Positions 45,662 through 52,571 of a DNA stretch of 55,382 nt are shown here, piece by piece. The stretch is from an uncultured Anaerolineaceae bacterium (GTDB taxonomy: Bacteria > Chloroflexota > Anaerolineae > Anaerolineales > Anaerolineaceae). The notes beneath the pieces are model-generated. The model searched no databases, was not told the origin of the DNA, and saw only the letters and a list, made by a program, of their open reading frames with translations. The DNA lies in contig CAKMKJ010000043.1 of assembly GCA_927443345.1 (NCBI GenBank), positions 1 to 55,382 on the forward strand. The letters run 5' to 3'. Positions within the stretch are counted from its first letter, which is position 1, and every line of letters begins with the position of its first letter. Position numbers and translations under genes: made by a program.

Positions 45662-45718
45662 TGGATTCTCTCTTTTGATTGTTTATTTCGAGATTTTGGT
45701 GAATTTAGTATGTTTAAT

Positions 45719-45866
45719 TCTTTTAACCACGAAACACACCAAAATTTCTAAAGAAAAACCAAAAGCAAAAAACAAAAGTAAATCCTGTTTTGAAATCTGA
45801 ATTTGAAGATCTATTTTTGTTTTTTGCACTTCCATTTTTTGTTATTCGTGTTTCGTGGTTAAAAGA
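45719..45866. repeat. MITE-like element with 19-bp terminal inverted repeats
   Basis: TCTTTTAACCACGAAACAC at 45719-45737 is matched perfectly in reverse at 45848-45866. Inside, A-rich and T-rich halves form a further long imperfect hairpin (for example GCAAAAAACAAAA against its complement). The end core AACCACGAAACAC is the same as in the repeats that surround the GxxExxY gene at 51.4-52.1 kb. There is no gene inside, and no clear target-site duplication. Confidence 0.7.
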
Positions 45867-45885
45867 TTGAATGATTCTATTATAC

Positions 45886-51270: not shown

Positions 51271-51391
51271 ATTTAAAACCTCCACAGGTTCAAAGGGATT
51301 TAGTGCATTAGAATAGTATTAATATATCCCCTGAGTATTAAAAGAATGTAAACAAAGCATTTGATTTTCGTTGGAGAGGTTGGTAAAAACC

Positions 51392-52107
51392 TTATTAACC
51401 ACGAAACACACGGAAAACACTAAAAGGAAAGGCAAAAGTCTATAACAAAACCAAAAAAACAAAACCAAACCAAAAACCAAAACTTTATTAACCACGAAAC
51501 ACACGAAATACACTAAAAGGAAAAACTAAGGGCAATAACTAAAGGCAAAAACTAAAAACAAAAAGCATAAATGAATTCTTATTTTTATAAAACAATTCGT
51601 TCAACAGTTGCCCGCGGATAATGACCAAAATTGATTAGCAATCCTAGATGAAGTTTTGATACTTTTAGATAATTGTGGAGTTGGGCTTTGTGTTCATCGT
51701 TGGTTTCTTTAACGGCTTTGAGTTCAAGAATTCTCTTTTCATAACAAACAAAATCTGGACGATAGACTTGACTGAGGATGAACCCCTTATATTCAATTGT
51801 CATTTCAGATTGAGACATAAAGGGGATATTTCTTATTGAAAATTCTCTGGCTAGCGCTTCCTGGTATACGGCTTCAATAAAACCACAACCCAACTCTCGA
51901 TAAACCTCGAATATTGCTCCTTGAAGCACAAAGCTCTCTTCCTTAAGCAGGAGTTTACTATCTGCCGTAGAATTCATAATTCCCTCCTATAAAATTGATA
52001 TTTCGTATCTTGCCCTTCTTTTTAGTGTGTTTAGTGTGTTTCGTGGTAATAATGATTTTGGTTTTTGATTTCTTTTCAATTTTTTTGTGTCGTTTGTGGT
52101 TAATAAA
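51392..52107. mobile_element. Putative element: GxxExxY gene inside nested inverted repeats
   Basis: On the left, two direct copies of a 39-bp repeat (51392-51430 and 51484-51523, TTATTAACCACGAAACACAC followed by ACACTAAAAGGAAA-like bases) precede the gene. On the right, an inverted copy (52015-52052) matches with few differences, and a more degenerate inverted copy ends at 52107. Thus the gene at 51585-51977 sits in outer and inner inverted repeats, 716 bp in all. The same core is found at both ends of the 45719-45866 repeat. No transposase is present; mobility would depend on the GxxExxY nuclease or on an enzyme elsewhere. No target-site duplication was found. Confidence 0.6.
51585..51977 (-). 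CDS. GxxExxY protein (PD-(D/E)XK nuclease-like)
   Basis: A 130-residue protein of the GxxExxY family. The name motif is GFIEAVY (32-38). The nuclease-like residues are in RPDFV (P74 D75) and ELK (85-87), followed by QLHNY (Q99, Y103), which form the PD-(D/E)XK core plus the QxxxY motif, so it may cut DNA. Length is normal. GGAGG lies eight bases upstream of the ATG. Unusually it stands alone inside inverted repeats (51392-52107). The family is poorly characterised; catalysis in this protein is an inference. Confidence 0.88.
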   Translation of the reverse strand: MNSTADSKLLLKEESFVLQGAIFEVYRELGCGFIEAVYQEALAREFSIRNIPFMSQSEMTIEYKGFILSQVYRPDFVCYEKRILELKAVKETNDEHKAQLHNYLKVSKLHLGLLINFGHYPRATVERIVL

Positions 52108-52112
52108 CAGAT

Positions 52113-52571
52113 TTACTTAGGCCAGATGAGCCACAAGATCAGGGCTGTAGCCAAACCGGTGAGGACGCCGCCAACGACTTCAAAGGGGGTGTGGCCGAGC
52201 ATTTCTTTGAGCTTTTTCTGTTCTTCGTTGGGGGTCTTGGCGATAACAAACCAGTCATCCAGCATGCGGTTAAGAGCTTCGGCGTGATAGCCGGCTTCAC
52301 GCCTGACGCCTGCAGCGTCATACACGACAATCATGGTGATGGCTACCGCTATGGCAAAGGCCGGGTGGTCGAATCCGCTGAAGAGACCGATGGCCAGGGT
52401 GGTGCCTGACAAGGTCGCGGAATGAGAACTGGGCATGCCACCGGTGCCAAAGGCCAGTTTGACATTAAACTTGCGGTGCATGATGAAAAATACCGGAATC
52501 TTTAAAATGGAAGAGGCAAGCCAGGCAACGATGCAGGTGATCAGTTCGGGATAATTAACAAGAAAAGACAT
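52113..52571 (-). CDS. Divergent PAP2 family protein (DUF212)
   Basis: A 152-residue integral membrane protein of the divergent-PAP2 family. FGTGGMPSSHSATLSG carries the PSSH core of phosphatase motif II, and HTPFEVVGGVLTG the third-motif His, so a phosphatase acting on lipid-linked phosphates is likely but unproven. YDAAGVRREAGYHAEALN is a family hallmark. It has four or five helices. The gene follows xseB by 3 bp (stop 52575, start 52571) and so is probably cotranscribed. Its stop is 6 bp from the outer repeat of the GxxExxY element. Confidence 0.9.
   Translation of the reverse strand: MSFLVNYPELITCIVAWLASSILKIPVFFIMHRKFNVKLAFGTGGMPSSHSATLSGTTLAIGLFSGFDHPAFAIAVAITMIVVYDAAGVRREAGYHAEALNRMLDDWFVIAKTPNEEQKKLKEMLGHTPFEVVGGVLTGLATALILWLIWPK

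Follow-up and report, generated by a model that had tools for sequence, protein, structure and literature searches.

GxxExxY nuclease genes enclosed by periodic inverted repeats: a candidate minimal mobile element

Y1 transposases are the known movers of REPs, and in the REPtron (RAYT plus REP) one small gene stands between inverted short repeats that are also dispersed solo. TIR-flanked Y1 genes, or TIRtrons, have been described as well (PMC3733652), and the 23S rRNA intervening sequence with its S23 ORF is presented as a selfish element of 428 nt that bears terminal inverted repeats and a single small ORF (PMC4990558). Among PD-(D/E)XK nucleases, the Rpn or YhgA-like proteins (PF04754) have been linked to horizontal spread, with independent insertions of rpnC suggested at one place and with cognate inverted repeats going unmentioned for Rpn in the accessible part of that paper (PMC5350276); a later paper presents Rpn as anti-phage toxin-antitoxins (PMC10327210). 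The nuclease gene reported here belongs to a Pfam family other than that of Rpn. Its family, GxxExxY, is mentioned in passing in the accessible parts of two papers (PMC8934634, PMC12085832), one of the mentions standing in an algal virus gene table. The matches listed among open PMC papers yielded no description of a GxxExxY gene-plus-repeats element, and one of six repeat strings sought there occurs, in the accessible part of an environmental-DNA fish study.

The window, by which we mean the whole stretch of 55,382 nucleotides analysed, comes from an uncultured Anaerolineaceae bacterium (contig CAKMKJ010000043.1; genome G000 here). Between dnaK and a 152-aa ORF at 52113-52571, called PAP2-like after an earlier reader and without an NCBIfam match in the family scan, lies a single gene with repeats on either side; a solo pair of the same repeat lies some way before it.

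51392..51429, plus strand: left outer repeat (TTATTAACCACGAAACACACGGAAAACACTAAAAGGAA), period about 9, from the repeat search and the printed copies
51485..51522, plus strand: left inner repeat, which with the outer copy makes up the direct pair 51386-51562 at 93-bp spacing
51585..51977, minus strand: GxxExxY gene, 130 aa, TIGR04256 / PF13366 PD-(D/E)XK nuclease
52016..52053, minus strand: right inner repeat, inverted relative to the left copies
52069..52107, minus strand: right outer repeat, inverted and degenerate
45720..45863 (seen as 45716-45868), no strand: solo inverted pair of the window repeat, MITE-like, with no GxxExxY gene inside

The nested arrangement described in the first-pass annotation is borne out, two left copies facing two right copies across the gene. 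An unprompted repeat search of the window returned the direct pair 51386-51469/51479-51562 (81% identical) and the inverted pair 51444-51522/52016-52094 (77% complementary over 79 nt); further inverted pairs are 51386-51435/52010-52059 (80%), 51484-51522/52069-52107 (74%) and 51392-51429/52069-52106 (74%). The repeat unit, with a period of about 9, runs ACCACGAAA-CACACGAAA-TACAC... Its core, ACCACGAAACACAC, is found 10 times in the window with up to three mismatches against 4.2 expected, a number that 1 of 100 shuffles attains, and the exact copies number four, three at the GxxExxY locus and one in the solo pair. Folded as single-stranded DNA, the solo pair gives a single long hairpin of about 150 bases (z -6.9), and copies related to it are present on contigs C66 and C82 of the host genome. 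Two other ORFs of at least 60 aa touch 51386-52107 (51319-51513, minus strand, 64 aa; 52087-52287, plus strand, 66 aa), both overlapping repeats. No known transposase was recognised between the window TIRs in a family scan that covered the nuclease ORF, and no target duplication is visible by eye at the window element.

Genome-wide, TAACCACGAANNACACGAA with up to two mismatches occurs in 54 places, against one for the reversed pattern, and the host genome holds three GxxExxY genes, two of them (L002, L003) with CACGAA arms and the third (L001) with arms of a CGCAAAG type. Repeats and genes do co-occur, so that the complete separation of the two which would have told against the first-pass annotation is not seen; the majority of the repeat copies in this genome flank no GxxExxY gene. 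Beside the second GxxExxY gene lies a tandem 70-bp CACGAA-repeat array (L053, G000:C55:17362-17640), and one contig starts with an imperfect palindrome of repeat copies of about 490 bases, possibly an assembly artefact (L047, G000:C66:1-486).

The ORF at 51585-51977 scores 129.1 bits to TIGR04256 (cut-off 35) and 132.5 bits to PF13366 and carries the motif as GFIEAVY, a score and motif that place it in TIGR04256; its D...ExK site, Pfam match and fold matches to nucleases place it in the PD-(D/E)XK superfamily. Among the order-level proteins, E23 and Y26 of the motif together with D63, E73 and K75 are identical in all 93, and motif G20, Q87 and Y91 are present in 92 of 93, as are the complete motif columns; in a set of 34 sequences from across phyla, the motif G, E and Y and D75 are invariant and E85 and K87 are at least 90% conserved. 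Among the fold matches of the protein model (pLDDT 92), SSO0001, a Cas4, ranks first (4ic1_G; Z 9.8; 98 residues at rmsd 3.3; Foldseek E 7.5e-5). Lambda-type exonucleases come next in Foldseek, and in a second fold comparison SSO0001 is followed by a Wolbachia CinB chain (Z 8.1) and R.SwaI (7.8), values near or in the range that the tool calls common. QxxxY marks RecB/Cas4 nucleases, and by fold and site the protein, with its conserved D...ExK and QxxxY, resembles a nuclease of the Cas4/RecB type, although it is shorter than Cas4. The best 50 fold matches include no transposase titles, which excludes no reading; a PDB sequence search with the protein gave no matches, and PADLOC and PHROGs gave weak ones only, among them PDC-M36A in PADLOC (E 0.001, 60 residues). 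The protein is under strong purifying selection: dN/dS is 0.016-0.117 in 10 of 13 pairs, dS being saturated in the remaining three, and 0.054-0.066 for L001/L095/L113, copies at different loci. Such selection argues against a mere passenger, which would be expected to decay.

Set against the described systems, the window unit shares with the REPtron its small gene between inverted repeats that also occur solo, but it is not a REPtron because the Y1 domain is absent: the unit encodes a PD-(D/E)XK nuclease, matching TIGR04256 and PF13366 only, and no Y1/HUH transposase, and its repeats, like those of GxxExxY loci elsewhere, belong to arrays with a period of 8-10 bp whereas REPs are GTAG-tagged hairpins. 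The likeness to MITEs and insertion sequences lies in the TIRs, the multiple copies, the internal deletions and some 8-bp target duplications that GxxExxY units show in G115, the multicopy genome described below. The unit carries a conserved nuclease gene, and no larger relative is seen in G115; since no transposase is recognised in it, we do not class it as an insertion sequence. The 23S rRNA intervening sequence has a fixed rRNA site and is processed as RNA, whereas the window unit lies between dnaK and the PAP2-like ORF; the analogy is with TIGR02436 genes, which have comparable arms here, of period 7.

The arrangement is general. An order-level search found GxxExxY matches in 75 of 121 genomes (the host's included), and its 93 loci comprise 3 from the host genome, 30 search loci and 60 others among the matches listed; a cross-phylum set consists of the best 80 of 572 confirmed loci, so that both sets are best-scoring matches and not random draws. 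The gene is patchily distributed, with 76 genomes positive in a phylum-wide sample of 400. We looked for an inverted repeat common to both 450-bp flanks, naming no motif and using windows shifted along the loci as controls; the score threshold of 16 was picked after the scores were seen, and the contrast with controls is stable from 14 to 20. Arms at this threshold are found at 60 of 92 testable order-level loci against 1 of 216 control windows (38 of 92 against 0 of 216 at a score of at least 20) and at 45 of 75 testable cross-phylum loci against 1 of 242, five of the 80 having too little flank; 32 and 30 loci respectively fall below it. The shifted windows rule out chance adjacency of gene and repeats. 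These locus counts are not fully independent, since L054 and L233 are one locus and a few others are close relatives. The cross-phylum loci come from Chloroflexota, Bacteroidota, Acidobacteria, Planctomycetes, Verrucomicrobia, Cyanobacteria, Proteobacteria, Methanosarcinales and others; of the archaeal ones, L232 and L265 reach the threshold and L298 does not.

Typical arms are ACCACAGAGACACAGAGACACAGAG and ACCGCAGAGACGCAGAG and, in the order-level set, CCACAGATGAACACAGAT. Periodicity is clear in 96 of 210 arms, at 8-10 bases in 92 of those 96, and the test is weak for the remaining arms because they are short; a few counted arms are of a non-periodic kind (for example L250). The CACGAA motif lies within 700 bp at 29 of the 93 order-level loci and points inward: up to 300 bp from the gene there are 34 plus-strand against 8 minus-strand copies upstream and 40 minus-strand against 3 plus-strand copies downstream, with 4 and 1 for the reversed pattern, and beyond 600 bp the motif falls to a few per 300-bp bin. 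Searches for carriage gave no GxxExxY match in 50,697 phage records and 8 in 72,556 plasmid records. One of the latter, on a Gemmatirosa kalamazoonensis megaplasmid (L308, 991307-996656), has a CGCAGAGG-type hairpin on each side, its tblastn match being split in two pieces, perhaps by a frameshift. Three GxxExxY genes lie on one strand inside 6 kb at G188:C14:59628-65351.

Repeat type follows protein type. Over the 105 loci with arms, repeat similarity correlates with protein identity (Spearman 0.42, null sd 0.04, permutation p 0.001), as it does in the cross-phylum subset (Spearman 0.26, p 0.001), a Mantel correlation that partly reflects common descent of the gene and the adjoining DNA. Beyond descent, the left and right arms of one locus also vary in concert, as in the syntenic trio L077/L087/L112 described below. 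Of 20 pairs from the same genome, the 17 with protein identity below 0.5 have repeat scores of 5-13 and the three above 0.5 have scores of 15-16.5; since unlike proteins have unlike arms inside single genomes, the host's general repeat content is ruled out as the cause. CACGAA repeats are more numerous in genomes with the gene (median 2 against 0 without it; p 2.8e-8, uncorrected for genome size or phylogeny), and five or more copies are found in 28 of 75 genomes with it against 3 of 46 without, these exceptions being G001, G003 and G053 (13, 7 and 7 repeats), where the search found no GxxExxY gene.

The clearest record of movement is in genome G115, which has 33 family matches, 30 of them taken as loci; all of the other 29 align to the first, L144. 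The unit is about 450 bp long with the nuclease as its sole gene, its copies have common sharp ends (GTATTTGTTTACCGCCGAGAACGCAGAG... and the complement), and internally deleted copies keep both. The end sequence occurs 73 times with no more than one mismatch, 59 times exactly, and is at background level only in the sister species G103 and G078. Both flanks are available for 11 copies: two are bordered by perfect 8-bp duplications and a third by one that matches at 7 of 8, a score reached by none of 110 mismatched-pair controls; seven have no duplication and one further (L150) is doubtful. An 8-bp duplication can also be seen by eye at L157 with its left end trimmed. The L149 copy is absent from G103 and G078 between the same flanking sequences, the intergenic DNA being too diverged for base-by-base alignment of the empty site, and for L151 a matching flank was found on one side only. 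L144 is an open full-length frame and L145 is open up to the contig start that cuts it; most other copies share a frameshift or have a deletion, and copies can therefore move in trans. The copies stand in unrelated flanks, which rules out a homing endonuclease with one allelic target site, so that the homing-like element raised in the first-pass annotation finds no footing here.

Other lineages add to this record. Two related elements of Bacteroidota, L242 (698 bp) and L250 (697 bp), share the TIR GCTACTCTTT and stand between perfect 8-bp duplications, TGCCCCCG and CCCGGGGA. The L001/L095/L113 element of the window's genus has a different locus in each of G000, G013 and G012. For two of the three pairs homology stops at the repeat ends or close to them, the third being a shorter match; L001/L095 have one additional small flank match. 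A unit whose ends match fits exactly into the gap between fabD and fabG in Sphingomonas parapaucimobilis (L309). Over the 105 broad loci, the window's included, target duplications of at least 7 bases number 4 against 3.6 expected and so show no excess over chance. In three further pairs (L057/L059, L074/L126, L082/L096) the long interspecies alignment continues across just one of the unit's two sides and breaks near the left arm, as if at a breakpoint; two of the three have additional small flank matches.

The window's own site is variable among relatives. A PAP2-like gene is found in 15 of 16 genomes of the genus, and a GxxExxY gene directly follows it in six (G000, G002, G004, G005, G009, G012) and is absent there in nine, so that the gene is not the constant feature of this locus that would have told against an insertion. 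The units in the slot differ in type, with CGCAGAG arms in G002 (L130) and CACGAA-like or degenerate ones in the others. By eye, the next neighbour in G002, G004, G005 and G009 recurs in G003, G006, G010 and G011, where the gene is absent. In G001 (L177) and G013 (L175) the PAP2-like protein shares 92-94% identity with that of the window; the slot before dnaK, which houses the GxxExxY unit in G000 and G012, is taken up there by period-7 GAGAATC/GGTTCTC repeats instead. The slot between PAP2 and dnaK looks like a place of repeated, independent occupation. This presence and absence, the recurrence of the architecture in many phyla, the multicopy sharp-ended element and the differing loci of congeners together lend support to the minimal mobile element proposed in the first-pass annotation.

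Units of gene plus repeats are found in a wide range of bacteria and in some archaea, traces of movement are visible in two lineages at least, and from sequence comparison the mobility of the unit is well supported. The sequences themselves show the architecture and its generality, the ends, the multicopy spread in different flanks and the internal deletions, and likewise some 8-bp duplications, the co-variation of repeat and protein and the purifying selection. The reading that we favour, and to which we give about an even chance, is that gene and flanking inverted repeats are one minimal mobile element, in which the nuclease has the element's own repeats as its target. The element would be about 0.45-0.7 kb long with one gene, the periodic repeats serving as terminal or subterminal recognition sites; the Cas4/RecB-like nuclease would bind several units of its own repeat type at each end and cut at or near the ends, and this cut would start excision or copying and so drive mobility. 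Joining could be left to host repair or replication, sometimes with an 8-bp duplication, and the same nuclease might act in trans on gene-less ends, which would account for the dispersed deleted copies and solo repeats. The earlier suggestion that the nuclease copies its own repeats is plausible to the extent that the repeat tracks the protein and that CACGAA is more abundant where the gene is present; that the nuclease catalyses the movement is what we infer. We know of no case of a PD-(D/E)XK nuclease alone joining DNA, and against the nuclease as mover stands the fact that no recombinase besides it is recognised in the unit. Also to be counted against the favoured reading are the G115 copies that have no duplication, the lack of an excess of duplications over the broad loci, the loci below the arm threshold, the many arms of unclear periodicity, the syntenic loci, and the CACGAA repeats of G001, G003 and G053.

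The main rival, which we think unlikely though deserving of serious attention, makes the unit a MITE or cargo whose outer TIRs are recognised by an unseen transposase elsewhere, the nuclease being a passenger that aids the persistence of the element. The 8-bp duplications and TIRs do resemble those of transposase-moved elements, the outer TIR of L242 and L250 is unrelated to the periodic repeats, which are internal, and the defective G115 copies move in trans. A parallel class of genes adds to its attraction. Four-helix-bundle genes of TIGR02436, the family to which the S23 ORF of the rRNA intervening sequences presumably belongs, are present in 60 of 121 genomes and occupy similar arms, with inverted arms scoring at least 16 at 17 of 30 loci against 1 of 58 controls and a period of 7 in 29 of the 34 arms of those 17. 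To our knowledge these genes encode no known enzyme and the S23 ORF protein is likewise non-enzymatic; the architecture therefore does not require a nuclease, and with this parallel the phenomenon becomes wider and the case for the nuclease as necessary mover weaker. The TIGR02436 loci (L318-L347) include the period-7 repeat types GTTAGCG, GAATCGA and AGGTGAT.

Against the cargo reading, the non-syntenic copies are under the strong purifying selection noted above, repeat type co-varies with the nuclease across phyla, and facing end pairs on one G115 contig are spaced 99-537 bp in 13 of 13 cases, so that no larger parental element with the same ends is seen there, although one could be missing because this assembly is 59% complete and many of its contigs stop inside copies. 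The Y1 loci examined also lack such arms. Y1 matches occur in 97 of 121 genomes, G115 not among them, and at 40 testable Y1-transposase loci (44 given, four skipped for short flanks) no periodic arms like those of GxxExxY are visible by eye; arms scoring at least 16 are found at 6 of 18 testable RAYT-like loci against 1 of 20 controls and at 3 of 22 testable IS200-like loci against 0 of 23, and by eye these are hairpins or other repeats. Of the host genome's three Y1 matches, L378 and L379 were inspected, and the sole motif match, at L378, contains two mismatches and no CACGAA core. A Y1 or RAYT mover is accordingly not supported by the inspected loci or by G115. Four Y1-type transposase genes of equal score (138.2 bits) lie on one contig, G061:C1.

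We consider it improbable that the family is a REPtron-like domesticated system, in which a fixed, vertically kept nuclease maintains or copies dispersed repeats in trans and the gene itself rarely moves. Some loci have this character: L077/L087/L112 and L269/L273 are syntenic between species, such loci being old and quiet, and in the former trio both arms have shifted together, L077 having mostly CGCGGAT and L087 and L112 mostly CACAGAT on both sides. The solo state of the majority of CACGAA copies in the host genome and the excess of these repeats in genomes with the gene point the same way. The multicopy gene-bearing elements of G115, the different loci in congeners and the patchy distribution speak against it. 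That the repeats are operators or RNA structures which regulate the nuclease (as, for example, a toxin or defence gene) and take no part in mobility, we regard as very improbable: the arms are often close to the gene and PDC-M36A is matched weakly, but solo inverted pairs occur without the gene, the arms lie on both sides and sometimes hundreds of bases away, and the G115 data, where element ends coincide with repeats and duplications are seen, disfavour it.

Returning to the nuclease acting on its own repeats, we would venture tentatively, and with somewhat less than even confidence, a wider proposal: that GxxExxY proteins, as Cas4/RecB-like nucleases outside all known transposase types, may catalyse the movement of minimal DNA elements of a new class, found in bacteria and archaea, whose inverted repeats of 8-10-bp period they recognise, alongside a four-helix-bundle sister class with repeats of 7-bp period, the two together explaining much of the short periodic repeats of environmental genomes. 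If this is true, a unit of about 450 bp with a nuclease of 120-130 aa would rank with the smallest DNA elements able to move themselves, and a new catalytic type would be added to transposition. The proposal offers a function hypothesis for TIGR04256 GxxExxY, a named but unexplained family, and a possible origin for short periodic repeats in environmental genomes, and the class-specific period (8-10 against 7) suggests a general principle by which small proteins are paired with repeat arrays of their own.
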